Below are positions 27,751-32,523 of a DNA stretch of 64,000 nucleotides, piece after piece. The position numbers and the translations under genes are program-made. The notes under the pieces were generated by a model that saw nothing but the letters and a program-made list of their open reading frames with translations, was not told the DNA's origin and did no database searches. The stretch's first letter is position 1. Every line of letters begins with the position of its first letter. Source of the DNA: Candidatus Zixiibacteriota bacterium (GTDB lineage: Bacteria > Zixibacteria > MSB-5A5 > GN15 > FEB-12); the NCBI GenBank assembly GCA_040753875.1, contig JBFMDV010000002.1, positions 1 through 64,000 of the forward strand, given 5' to 3'.

Positions 27751-28229
27751 CTACTTCAGCATGATGATTTTCTTTGTGGCGCTGTAGTCGGATGCCTCAA
27801 GCCTCACGAAGTACACGCCTGAGCTAACCGGATTGTCGACATCGTCGCGACCATTCCATATGACAGTGTGTTTTCCGGATTCGGCGTAGCCCTGATCGAG
27901 TGTCCGCACTGTCTGGCCGAGCAGATTGAAAATCCGCAACTGAACAGGACCGGGAACAGAGACCGAGAATGAGATCACCGTCTCCGCGTTGAACGGATTA
28001 GGATAGCATTCCGACAGAGTAGTCTGCCTCGCAGAATCTGCAGTTTTATAGGGCGGGTTGGGGTCCGGATCAGGACAGTAGTCGAGGTAGCCGGTTTCCG
28101 CCCAGACAAGTGTATCGGACCAGTCGGAGTGCTTGCCGTTCCAATCGGTGACCTCGATCTCGTACCGGTACCACACCCCCAGATTCAGCGGGCTATCTCC
28201 AGGTGTTCGTCCGGAGTAGTGTAATACTC
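27751..28229 (-). pseudogene. Frame-displaced C-terminal part of the adjacent subtilase (Fn3 end plus sorting domain)
   Basis: In this frame the reverse strand is open from the stop near 28229 down to 27751 and begins with the missing half of an Fn3-like domain (LNLGVWYRYEIEVTDWNGK), then TTLSECYPNPFNAETVISFS and a C-terminal domain ending SSGVYFVRLEASDYSATKK plus IIMLK. That ending is the FCB-type sorting/FlgD-like domain. There is no ribosome-binding site; the only starts are weak (a GTG at 28176). It reads as a continuation of the 28185-30488 gene after a frame change, so the two are best treated as one disrupted gene. Confidence 0.75.
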
Positions 28230-30488
28230 AAACATGTAAGGCCCGCTCATATACAATTGCCTTACCTTGTATGTGAGATTTCCCGGTTTTTGTCTCGAGG
28301 ACCTTGTCCAATTGAGTTCCACTTTGTTGGTCAGGCACGGGTCATCTGGCATGGAGTCGGGCGGCGCGGGCGTAGCTATCTTACCGGCCACTTGCTTTCC
28401 AACAGGGATAACGAAGCAACCTGGCGCCATCACGGTACCACCGGTGAATGTATCCGGCCACCGCGGCTTGGCGGTAACGGTCACCTCAGGCGAATACTGC
28501 GGCGTTTCATCTACCGGAAGTGGCCAGATGCGATAGGCATACGTTTCACTCCCGACAAACGACGAATCATAGAATGACGGCGTTAGCATCGGTCCTGTAG
28601 TGTCAAGAGTCTCCCATGAGACAGAGTCCACTGCCCGACGCTGGATCACCCAGCCGCTCTCGAAGCTGTTGGGATCGGTCCACTGCAGGCGAATTGCCTG
28701 ATATCTCCCCTCAGACATTGCGTCGTATACGACAGGAAAGGCGGTAAGGTTGGAGGCTGCTGCAACATGCGGCTTGCCTGCAACCGTGATCTTGAACTTG
28801 ATGTCCGGACCGTTGTTGCATGGTGGATTGTCGCACGGCCACCATTGGTTGTATTGCTGACCGCTAATGTCCCACTTGATGAAATAGGCGAACGATTCCA
28901 CATCGCAGCCGGAGCTTGTTACCGAACCTGGAACGACCTGCATGTACTGTTGTTCGTTGTTAGGATTTGCTGCACTCCATCCATTAGATACTCTGTTCCG
29001 AAGGAGTATTTCTGGTGGGGTAGTGAAATTGTAATCGGCGAAATCAAAATGTGACCTTACGGAATAGGTCTCTACGAAGTAGACTCCGGAAGCTATGTCG
29101 CCGTGGCTATTGATAAACACGTGCCCGTGTAGACCCTGTACCATCTGCCTGTTACCGCCAATAGCTTCCTTTCTGAAGAATGAGTTATTCGCCACAAAAT
29201 GAAGAGCCGCGTCCGCTTTCACAACTCCCCAGCCATAAAACTGATCCCAGCCAGGATCGCCGCGGTCCAAGGCTGTCAATTGCATAATTTGCTCGACTTC
29301 ATCGGCCGTGAGGTCCTTCTTGTATGACAGAATAAGCGAAGCCACACCGGCTGCTATCGGAGTCGACATTGAAGTACCTTGTGTTGACGTGACTCCGCCG
29401 CTTGTCGACGTAGTAACTATGCCTTCGCCGGCTGCCATCAGGTCGAGGTTTGGTCCGTAGTTGCTAAAGGAAGATCGCGCACCTTGGGGAATGCATGCAC
29501 CCACACCGATGACGCCAAACAGGTCCGAGGGATAGTGAGTGGTGGCCGTAGCGTCGTTCCCTTTCGCGGCAAAGAGAAGAATGTCAGACTTCCAGGCGTT
29601 GTAGGTGGCGGCTGCCTCTTCGCCAGCGTATTCACCTCCATAAGTTCCCCACGACATACTGACCACAGATGCATCTCTTCTCCTTGCCCAGTCGATGCAT
29701 CTGACTCCGGCGACAGGGTCCACGGTTGGGTCGGTTCCGGCCTTTCCGTACAGGATGGGGGATTGCCAGTTCACACCGGCAACGACTGCAGCATTGTTTC
29801 CTTCGGCTCCAATCAGTCCTGTGACCAGAGTCCCATGTTCGTCCCCGATTGATACCATGTGAATATTCGTGCTATTGTCGAAGCCGTTGAATCCTTCGGA
29901 GATGCGGTTTATCAGGTCTACATGTCCCGTGTGCACGCCAACGTCGATGACACACAACTTGATGGCGGTGTCCCCCGTAGTATACTCCCAGGCGGAATCG
30001 ACATTCTGAGCGCCCTCGCGTACAGATTGGAGATGCCACTGATACTGGTAGTAGGGATCATTCGGTGTCACTTTGCAAACCTGTCGGTAGTACTTCTGAT
30101 CCACAATTGTAAAAGCGCTGTCCTCGCCATAGGCGGCTGCTAATTCGTGCCACCAGACCGAATCCGCAAACTCCAACGTGTAGTATTCGGCAAGGTTGAT
30201 CAGGCGGACTGTCTCGCCATGTCGATCCGTAGAGATCGTATCGGCAGGATCGAAGTCCGGGAATATCCGACAAATGTTCGTGGCACCAGTTGAGTCCAGG
30301 AAGTGGAGCAGCGTGGTATCGGCAATGGCAGACGAGACAGCCACTTTGCCGGACACTGGTCCGGTCAGTACGGCGTCTTTGATAACAGTGACTACCGTAA
30401 AGGGATCATAGACCGAAGTTGTGTCCCCTTTGCTCACGGGGCATATCAGCAGCCCTGCAAGTACGATAACAATGAGATTGATTTTCAT
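28185..30488 (-). CDS. Secreted S8 subtilase, C-terminus lost by frame change
   Basis: 767 residues. Signal peptide (1-21), then a propeptide-like region, then a subtilase domain with Asp182 (CVIDVGVHTGH), His218 (DEHGTLVTG), the oxyanion Asn311 (AAKGNDA) and Ser373 (TQGTSMSTP). Downstream are a beta-rich domain (about 440-570) and Fn3-like domains (about 575-767), the last of which is cut off at PDEHLEIAR. The following 425 bases in another frame supply the rest. Start ATG preceded by GGGGAG. The catalytic triad is intact, so a truncated but active protease could still be made, though without its sorting signal. Confidence 0.85.
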   Translation of the reverse strand: MKINLIVIVLAGLLICPVSKGDTTSVYDPFTVVTVIKDAVLTGPVSGKVAVSSAIADTTLLHFLDSTGATNICRIFPDFDPADTISTDRHGETVRLINLAEYYTLEFADSVWWHELAAAYGEDSAFTIVDQKYYRQVCKVTPNDPYYQYQWHLQSVREGAQNVDSAWEYTTGDTAIKLCVIDVGVHTGHVDLINRISEGFNGFDNSTNIHMVSIGDEHGTLVTGLIGAEGNNAAVVAGVNWQSPILYGKAGTDPTVDPVAGVRCIDWARRRDASVVSMSWGTYGGEYAGEEAAATYNAWKSDILLFAAKGNDATATTHYPSDLFGVIGVGACIPQGARSSFSNYGPNLDLMAAGEGIVTTSTSGGVTSTQGTSMSTPIAAGVASLILSYKKDLTADEVEQIMQLTALDRGDPGWDQFYGWGVVKADAALHFVANNSFFRKEAIGGNRQMVQGLHGHVFINSHGDIASGVYFVETYSVRSHFDFADYNFTTPPEILLRNRVSNGWSAANPNNEQQYMQVVPGSVTSSGCDVESFAYFIKWDISGQQYNQWWPCDNPPCNNGPDIKFKITVAGKPHVAAASNLTAFPVVYDAMSEGRYQAIRLQWTDPNSFESGWVIQRRAVDSVSWETLDTTGPMLTPSFYDSSFVGSETYAYRIWPLPVDETPQYSPEVTVTAKPRWPDTFTGGTVMAPGCFVIPVGKQVAGKIATPAPPDSMPDDPCLTNKVELNWTRSSRQKPGNLTYKVRQLYMSGPYMFEYYTTPDEHLEIAR

Positions 30489-30535: not shown

Positions 30536-31432
30536 TTAGAACGTGATCTGTTTCAAGTTTCCTCCTTGCTGATCGATCAGCCAGATATAGGGTTTGTTGT
30601 CGGTGCCGCGCCGGCTGATGGCGATACGGCTTCCCGAAGGCGCGCACTTTGGCCAATCTCCGACAGCGAGATAGCGGAAGTTGCTGCCATCGGCATTGCT
30701 GATATACAGCTTACCGGTGCGCGCTTTGTTATAGAAAAACCCATACACAATGCTCTGGCCGTCTGCTGTCCAGTCGTATACCTGAGCGTCTGCGGAAACT
30801 CCCGAGAGTTGATTCAGTGTCTGCAAATCGTAGCGAAGCACCGAGTCGTGGCGGTTGACGAGCAGGTAACGTGCATCAGGGGAAGTGGCGGGATACCCCC
30901 CGCCGACTATGTGCACGGTATCACCAGTCTGCAGGTCCATCCGATAGACCGAGGTGGCCCAGTTGTCGGCTACGCCCTGATCCTCGTAGTAGAGATACCT
31001 GCCGGTCGGATCGAGCTCCGGGAAACGGGCATCAACGCAGTCGCAAATGAGTGTAATCTGCATGGCCGGTAGATGCAGCTTGTACAACTTAAATCCACTA
31101 AAGAAGATGAATTCTGAATCGCCGGGAAGCCATACGGCATCGAAGGCATAGCGGCGTAGAAAAATCGGTGAACCTCCCAGAGTATCGACTACGCATAGCC
31201 AGTATCCGATTGAGTCGCCAGAAGCTATAAAACGCGTAAAGGTTATCTTATTTCCTGCTTGTGTCCAGGAAGGGCCGCTGTCATACAACGGTGGCGGCTT
31301 CGTCGGCGGCCCAACATGGTCATTGCCATCACACCCGCCCATGCCAGTGAGCAACACGATGACCATAAATAGTATCACTACGGCCCTGCTATTGCGTGCG
31401 CTGCGCCTGCCATCTGCCCTGATCATGTTCAT
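30536..31432 (-). CDS. Beta-propeller (TolB/PD40-like) lipoprotein, copy 1
   Basis: 298 residues. A signal peptide ends in a lipobox-like GMGGC (Cys about 34), then a proline-rich tether. The rest is a propeller of about six blades with TolB/WD40-like turns: WLPGDSEFIFFSG, ELDPTGRYLYYED, ATSPDARYLLVNR, DWTADGQSIVYG and APSGSRIAISRRG. The family often forms scaffolds in the periplasm. A GGAGGG site precedes the start. It is a tandem paralogue of the next gene: about 315 bases of the 3' end and about 228 bases of the 5' part are almost identical, with a divergent middle. Confidence 0.82.
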   Translation of the reverse strand: MNMIRADGRRSARNSRAVVILFMVIVLLTGMGGCDGNDHVGPPTKPPPLYDSGPSWTQAGNKITFTRFIASGDSIGYWLCVVDTLGGSPIFLRRYAFDAVWLPGDSEFIFFSGFKLYKLHLPAMQITLICDCVDARFPELDPTGRYLYYEDQGVADNWATSVYRMDLQTGDTVHIVGGGYPATSPDARYLLVNRHDSVLRYDLQTLNQLSGVSADAQVYDWTADGQSIVYGFFYNKARTGKLYISNADGSNFRYLAVGDWPKCAPSGSRIAISRRGTDNKPYIWLIDQQGGNLKQITF

Positions 31433-32278
31433 TAGGCCCTCCGTTTTCTATATAGCTCCATTCAAATTGATGCACTCCCGGCGCGGTTTGTCAAAAAGAA
31501 CTTTCTGTTTTGTTTCTAAAACGTGATCTGTTTCAAGTTTCCTCCTTGCCGATCGATCAGCCAGATATAGGGTTTGTTGTCGGTGCCGCGCCGGCTGATG
31601 GCGATACGGCTTCCCGAAGGCGCGCACTTTGGCCAATCTCCGACAGCGAGATAGCGGAAGTTGCTGCCATCGGCATTGCTGATATACAGCTTACCGGTGC
31701 GCGCTTTGTTATAGAAAAACCCATACACAATGCTCTGGCCGTCTGCTGTCCAGTCGTATACCTGAGCGTCTGCGGAAACTCCCGAGAGTTGATTCAGTGT
31801 CTGCAAATCGTAGCGAAGCACCGAGTCGTGGCGGTTAACGAGCAGATACTGGCCATCGGGAGACACGGCTGGAAACCCACCCCCGACGATATGTGCTGTG
31901 TCGCCAGTCTGTAAGTCCATGCGATAGACGGAGGTGGCCCAACCGTTCGCCACGCCCTGATCCTCGTAGTATAGAAAGCGGCCTTTCGGATCGAGCTCCG
32001 GAAAGCGGGAGAAGATACAGTCGCAGATAACGGTTTCCTGCATAGTAGGGAGATGCAGCTTGTACAACTTAAATCCACTAAAGAAGATGAATTCTGAATC
32101 GCCGGGAAGCCATACGGCATCGAAGGCATAGCAGCGTAGAAAAATCGGTGAACCTCCCAGAGTATCGACTACGCATAGCCAGTATCCGATTGAGTCGCCA
32201 GAAGCCATAAAACGCGTAAAGGTTATCTTATTTCCTGCTTGTGTCCAGGAAGGGCCGCTGTCATACAACGGTGGCGGC
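30541..32278. repeat. Mosaic direct repeat of two ~0.75-0.9 kb gene copies
   Basis: Shift of exactly 980 bases. 30541-30855 matches 31521-31835 with a single difference (30570/31550). 31071-31298 matches 32051-32278 with two differences. The 30856-31070 segment matches 31836-32050 only loosely, with many substitutions but no length change. Confidence 0.9.
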
Positions 32279-32412
32279 GGGGTCGGTACAAAGGCCTTGT
32301 TGTCGCCGTCACACCCGGCAATGCCGGGCAGAAGCAACCACAGGCAAAGTGATAGTGAGCTGCCCCAGTTGAATATCTTCCCGTACTTGGGAACTGCGAT
32401 TCGAGTATCCAT
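31516..32412 (-). CDS. Beta-propeller (TolB/PD40-like) lipoprotein, copy 2
   Basis: 298 residues from the ATG at 32412, which has GGAGGG upstream; an earlier ATG at 32424 sits on the ribosome-binding site itself. Lipobox-like GIAGC, a Pro-rich tether (FVPTPPPPLYDSG) and the same propeller as copy 1. The signal peptide and first residues differ from copy 1, which suggests that the copies have separate N-termini with an exchanged body. No promoter was recognised between the copies, so they may be co-transcribed from upstream of this gene. Confidence 0.82.
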   Translation of the reverse strand: MDTRIAVPKYGKIFNWGSSLSLCLWLLLPGIAGCDGDNKAFVPTPPPPLYDSGPSWTQAGNKITFTRFMASGDSIGYWLCVVDTLGGSPIFLRCYAFDAVWLPGDSEFIFFSGFKLYKLHLPTMQETVICDCIFSRFPELDPKGRFLYYEDQGVANGWATSVYRMDLQTGDTAHIVGGGFPAVSPDGQYLLVNRHDSVLRYDLQTLNQLSGVSADAQVYDWTADGQSIVYGFFYNKARTGKLYISNADGSNFRYLAVGDWPKCAPSGSRIAISRRGTDNKPYIWLIDRQGGNLKQITF

Positions 32413-32523
32413 GAATCCCTCCATAGTTAACTTGCTCCAGAAATAGAGACGGGTATGGAGGTAAGATTGTCAAGAGGAATTCGCCGTTTTTTTCAAAAGC
32501 AATAGCGGTCCAGCCAGCCGGTA

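Follow-up and report, generated by a model that had tools for sequence, protein, structure and literature searches.

How can two neighbouring genes appear to be recent copies of one another in some segments and long-separated paralogues in others? The question is raised by a pair of tandem genes on contig JBFMDV010000002.1 of a Candidatus Zixiibacteriota bacterium, of which positions 1 to 64,000 were analysed (hereafter the window). Copy A (30536..31432, minus strand) is an ORF of 298 aa that encodes a predicted lipoprotein with a TolB/PD40-like beta-propeller, and copy B (31516..32424, minus strand) is an ORF of 302 aa, a tandem paralogue on the same strand that stands in register with A at a distance of 980 nt. 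The PD40 model (PF07676) matches B with an E-value of 4.1e-6 and 27.0 bits, which is over the Pfam gathering cut-off of 20.9, and matches A with an E-value of 3.9e-4 and 20.8 bits, which just misses it; in an alignment of nine family members, seven carry PD40 matches (E <= 0.001). The match to TolB (TIGR02800) is weak for both genes, at 21.0 and 27.8 bits against a cut-off of 343.15, and so the cut-off is not reached. When the family profile was compared with the PDB, the top match was an uncharacterised Agrobacterium protein (2ojh, E 1.8e-10), followed by TolB chains (best E 1.4e-9). A structure model, for which the input was a two-sequence alignment, was poor (mean pLDDT 48.6), and the limits of the propeller blades were taken from the sequence repeats and not from this model. 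The signal peptides of A and B each close with a lipobox-like motif followed by Cys-Asp-Gly; the motifs GMGG-C and GIAG-C near the two N-termini are presumably the lipobox with its cysteine, and the proteins are predicted to be lipoproteins on this ground. As judged from sequence, the two products are predicted PD40/TolB-like propellers with lipoprotein-like N-termini and are not TolB itself. Long antisense ORFs (30566-31072 and 31510-31914) overlie the propeller genes and are probably incidental to the coding frame.

The extent of the near-identity between A and B was mapped by self-comparison of the window at a shift of 980, and coordinates are given for copy A. The 3' tract (30540..30856, minus strand; partner 31520-31836 in B) comprises 317 nt with a single difference, at 30570, and enters the last codon. 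The 5' tract (31071..31298, minus strand; partner 32051-32278 in B) comprises 228 nt with two differences, at 31153 and 31226, and starts at the run of prolines that follows the signal peptide. Between the two tracts lies a diverged patch (30857..31070, minus strand; partner 31837-32050 in B) of 214 nt, which contains 58 differences, 30 of them transitions and 28 transversions, and no indels. These measurements bear out the preliminary description of the locus, which reported tracts of about 315 and 228 bases with one and two differences at a spacing of 980, separated by about 215 bases that carry many changes without an indel. The patch corresponds to codons 121-192 of A, which cover the end of propeller repeat 2, all of repeat 3 and the start of repeat 4, and it contains 15 amino-acid differences in 72 codons, whereas the two flanking tracts together contain 3 in 181 codons. 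The longest identical run inside the patch is 20 nt (30972-30991). In the remainder of codons 46-298, A and B differ at four positions only (30539, 30570, 31153 and 31226). The longest identical run between the two copies is 286 nt, and none of 20,000 shuffles of codons 46-298 produced a run as long (shuffle maximum 182); the last 40 codons contain two differences, a count as low as this being reached in 60 of 20,000 shuffles.

Beyond 31298 and below 30539, the similarity between A and B collapses, with the exception of the lipobox region (31325-31356 versus 32305-32336), which is 75% identical over 32 nt. The diverged N-terminus of A (31299..31432, minus strand; partner 32279-32424 in B), which comprises the lipoprotein-like signal peptide and the linker, gives a dS of about 2.1 and a dN of 0.80 over 36 aligned codons, for which the alignment is doubtful. 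The signal peptides had initially been called unrelated; they are indeed very different, but the lipobox-like motif, the Cys-Asp-Gly that follows it and the 75% identity of the region are common to both, and the term is too strong in this respect. The non-coding flanks of A and B show no similarity in register, and only 7-nt matches were returned when the upstream stretches were compared by blastn-short. Apart from A and B, the only direct repeat of at least 45 nt detected in the window by a repeat finder lies between two tRNA genes. The GC content of the patch is 0.597 and 0.569 in the two copies, against 0.565 for the window, and its GC3 resembles that of the 3' tract and the N-terminus in both copies. 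The GC3 of the 5' tract (31071-31298) is low, at 0.48-0.49 against 0.65-0.69 over the remainder of both genes, and could hint at another source for this tract.

Synonymous and nonsynonymous divergence along the alignment of A and B was obtained from Nei-Gojobori counts. The dS is 0 over codons 46-120, 1.53 over the patch (codons 121-192) and 0.013 over codons 193-298, and it was the comparison of per-site differences and synonymous rates proposed in the preliminary description that brought out these abrupt steps. Within the patch, dN is 0.149 and dN/dS is 0.10 (0.097). Had selection favoured protein variation in a recent duplicate, many amino-acid changes and few silent ones would be expected. 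Given that its dS of 1.53 contrasts with values of 0 and 0.013 for the tracts and that its dN/dS is 0.10, the patch is old and under purifying selection rather than hypervariable. A second tandem pair, about 40% identical to A and B, is present in a genome of another genus of the same family (G007), and in comparison with this pair the patch is the best-conserved segment of the gene, at 57-64% amino-acid identity, whereas the three remaining segments reach 29-42%. In the segments that correspond to the tracts, pS between the window and G007 is 0.47-0.81, and the silent sites in the tracts are therefore not fixed; on the same values, fixation of synonymous sites, for example by way of the overlying antisense ORFs, was ruled out as a cause of the identity.

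With a probability of about 0.85, A and B are old tandem duplicates between which recent homologous recombination has copied two tracts while sparing the patch and the N-terminus. Segmental gene conversion between old tandem duplicates, which the preliminary description had put forward, is well supported, because dS rises from 0 and 0.013 in the tracts to 1.53 in the patch and because patchy identity is also found in the tandem pair of G007 and, more weakly, in that of a third genome, G035. The companion claim that the locus is not a simple recent duplication was likewise correct.

The distribution of the family was surveyed at several depths. A and B are the sole matches in their own genome at E <= 0.001, and no third copy is present at this threshold. 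Of 41 genomes of the family and order, own genome included, 15 match at E <= 0.001, most of them weakly and partially. A nine-member profile matches 11 of 54 genomes of the family at 1e-10, several of these matches being partial. Across the phylum, where up to 18 candidates were scored in each genome, it matches 8 of 132 genomes at 1e-20. The set used for comparison was drawn from this last search and consists of 13 genes from eight genomes, the two of the window included and weaker partial matches excluded. No relative was confirmed in a collection of named genomes that was searched with copy B and with a four-protein alignment.

Patchy identity is not confined to the window. In the G007 pair, a mid-gene tract of 34 codons (at codons 147-180 of A) contains two differences and the last 40 codons contain six; dS is about 0.17 in the tracts against 1.1-2.4 in the surrounding segments, and the longest identical run, of 83 nt, was reached in none of 20,000 shuffles. 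One of the G007 tracts falls inside the region of the window's patch, which indicates that no fixed functional region underlies the unconverted part. The tandem pair of G035, which belongs to another family of the same order, differs at 167 positions over 276 codons, its first copy being short at the 5' end, near a contig edge. Its dS by segment spans 0.22 (3' end) to 2.19 (patch) and forms a gradient without sharp tracts, so that the contrast is weaker. The last 40 codons account for 11 of the 167 differences, a count matched or undercut in 10 of 20,000 shuffles, the first 20 compared codons are even more alike, with one difference, and the longest identical run is 59 nt (reached in 5 of 20,000 shuffles). 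All three tandem pairs possess significantly long identical runs and few differences at the 3' end (2, 6 and 11 in the last 40 codons), although the 3' end is not the least diverged part in every pair. Among the 78 pairs that can be formed from the 13 genes, the tandem pairs rank at the top for identical runs (286, 83 and 59 nt), and all others have runs of at most 19 nt. Three non-tandem same-genome pairs, in G015 and G035, exhibit no long identical runs (10, 15 and 9 nt); at an identity of only 43-52%, their divergence may be too great for conversion wherever the genes lie, and they constitute a weak control. Conversion thus seems to recur in the family, as the tandem pairs of two other genomes have patches of their own, and inspection of homologous loci, as the preliminary description had advised, revealed boundaries that differ from those of the window.

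The age of the duplication was approached through trees of separate segments. A joins B in all six column sets, with a support of 0.98 in the patch, and A and B are also joined (support 0.94) in the 47 columns presumed to have been left unconverted in the window as well as in G007. Conversion might be expected to make segment trees conflict, with orthologues grouping in the unconverted parts, and this pattern was not found. The G007 pair does not form a clade in the patch or in the unconverted columns, and its copies do not pair with A and B by position. This outcome does not settle the matter against conversion if the duplication took place after the separation from G007; the duplication may indeed be that young, the pairs having arisen separately, or older conversions may have reached the patch as well. 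In a tree of the mature part of the protein the pairs cluster by genome, with synonymous sites near saturation, and the patch dS of 1.53 between A and B compares with 1.0-1.7 from A or B to G007, so that silent sites do not decide the age of the duplication. Orthology by position, in which the residues 'DARF' and 'FSRF' would link A to G007 copy 2 and B to G007 copy 1, was considered and rejected, as the count is 2 versus 0 amino-acid sites and 5 versus 4 nucleotides, and the trees disagree. Where the residues common to A and B agree with just one of the G007 copies, the ratio of copy 1 to copy 2 is 6:6 amino-acid sites in the 5' tract and, over codons 193-258, 7:2; these counts have no orthology anchor.

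Recombination between the direct repeats A and B would have copied sequence from one to the other, either in two events or in a single event with patchy repair, and the patch and the N-terminus, which were not copied, would have kept their old divergence. The ends of the tracts coincide with the ends of homology, namely the last codon and the linker after the signal peptide. When direct repeats recombine, gene conversion copies one repeat into the other, whereas reciprocal exchange changes the copy number instead. The probable route is ordinary RecA-type homologous recombination. In E. coli, RecA-type exchange requires a minimum length, and the 20-nt run of the patch is about at or below it. 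The patch may therefore escape, its longest identical run being too short to start an exchange, whereas the near-identical stretches would stay recombinable and the near-identical 3' end may anchor later events.

The contrast along the gene is symmetric, and two copied tracts are, on this evidence alone, equivalent to one replaced patch. The coding body could accordingly have been duplicated recently, and a diverged homologue could later have supplied a replacement for the patch of one copy, horizontal transfer being one possible route. This history is improbable, as it also requires a recent copy to carry very different signal peptides and flanks, the GC of the patch is near that of the window and its GC3 like that of the 3' tract and the N-terminus, and the genome contains no third copy at E <= 0.001; moreover, the mosaics of G007 and G035 lie in other segments and each would need a replacement of its own. 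It is more improbable still that the pattern is an artefact of assembly or polishing in which the reads of one copy were used for parts of both. Short reads have difficulty with near-identical stretches of this length (228 and 317 nt) and the assembly consists of 39 contigs, but the four differences outside the patch in codons 46-298 mean that one sequence was not simply used twice, the patch and the N-termini reveal two genes with intact frames, and the same kind of mosaic is found in two other assemblies.

Selection acting on the protein offers a further account, in which blades 3-4 form a specificity region where variation is favoured or difference is kept, while the rest is held uniform. 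The excess of amino-acid differences in the patch over the tracts fits this account, and divergence islands between converted tracts have, in one part of a report on another system, been read as possible selection (PMC3728101). Variation in blades 3-4 was also the alternative offered in the preliminary description, and evidence against it comes from the low dN/dS of the patch (0.097 at a dS of 1.53), from the patch being the segment best conserved with respect to G007 and from the position of the near-identical 34-codon tract of G007 (A codons 147-180) within the same region. Selection on the protein also leaves the absence of synonymous change in the flanks unexplained, and of the explanations considered this one is the least probable. 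Selection may merely retain a few of the 15 patch differences against conversion.

Directly downstream of A lies an S8 subtilase gene (28185..30488, minus strand; PF00082, E 1.3e-44). Beyond it is a tail ORF (27751..28176, minus strand), which carries a type IX secretion sorting domain (TIGR04183, E 3.4e-13) and is in a different frame from the subtilase. In G007, a single ORF of 929 aa matches both the subtilase and the type IX sorting tail, with the tail at its end; the split in the window may be genuine, may come from a sequencing error or may be programmed. An S8 subtilase gene is present directly downstream of the propeller gene or genes, and on the same strand, in the window and in 7 of 9 other loci. 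The pairing occurs at L023, L025, L026, L027, L049, L050 and L051, and also where the propeller gene is single, whereas in G012 and G027 the stretch examined yielded no homologue of the window's subtilase. In G026 (L026:3067-6803), the homology to the subtilase is divided between two ORFs and one stop falls within the propeller profile match, and this propeller-subtilase pair may be decaying. Judged solely by gene order, A and B are likely to be surface or outer-membrane lipoproteins that work with the adjacent subtilase. A wider scenario, to which we give only a small chance, is that the tandem propeller lipoproteins and the secreted subtilase constitute a recombining cassette pair, in which conversion that often includes the 3' end would renew both copies while the other blades drift until they escape, each lineage possessing its own blade mosaic that serves the protease.

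A narrow search of the literature, by title and abstract opening, returned nothing on the family of A and B or on the gene pair, which does not show that nothing has been published. Gene conversion between duplicated genes of bacteria is already well described, and A and B are a clean case of this known process. They provide a clear natural example of segmental conversion in short tandem bacterial genes, in which the old patch serves as an internal control and two more pairs allow comparison, and they serve as a warning that near-identity in such tandem pairs does not date the duplication; the analysis has also brought out the conserved pairing of propeller lipoprotein and subtilase genes. A and B differ from TolB in being shorter than the 418-position TolB model, in their lipoprotein-like N-terminus and in the subtilase gene alongside. 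A close parallel is the gene conversion and concerted evolution of prokaryotic duplicates such as tuf and tandem fla; recurrent concerted evolution has been reported for 26 prokaryotic genes in the part of the study by Wang and Chen (2018, PMC6053082) that is drawn on here. As in those genes, paralogues from the same genome are closer to each other than to their counterparts in other genomes, synonymous sites included, and this holds in more than one genome; conversion between A and B, however, is segmental and has left an old patch, and the genes are tandem lipoproteins. For tandem fla, the same part of that study leaves independent tandem duplication open as an alternative explanation of clustering by genome, and this alternative applies equally to the pairs of the window, G007 and G035. 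Conversion and rearrangement between copies have also been described, in a passage on duplicated PE_PGRS genes of mycobacteria (PMC1762029), and the resemblance lies in exchange between duplicated genes of one bacterium. Compared with the PE_PGRS genes as portrayed in that passage, A and B carry no sign of diversification, and their unconverted patch is under purifying selection.
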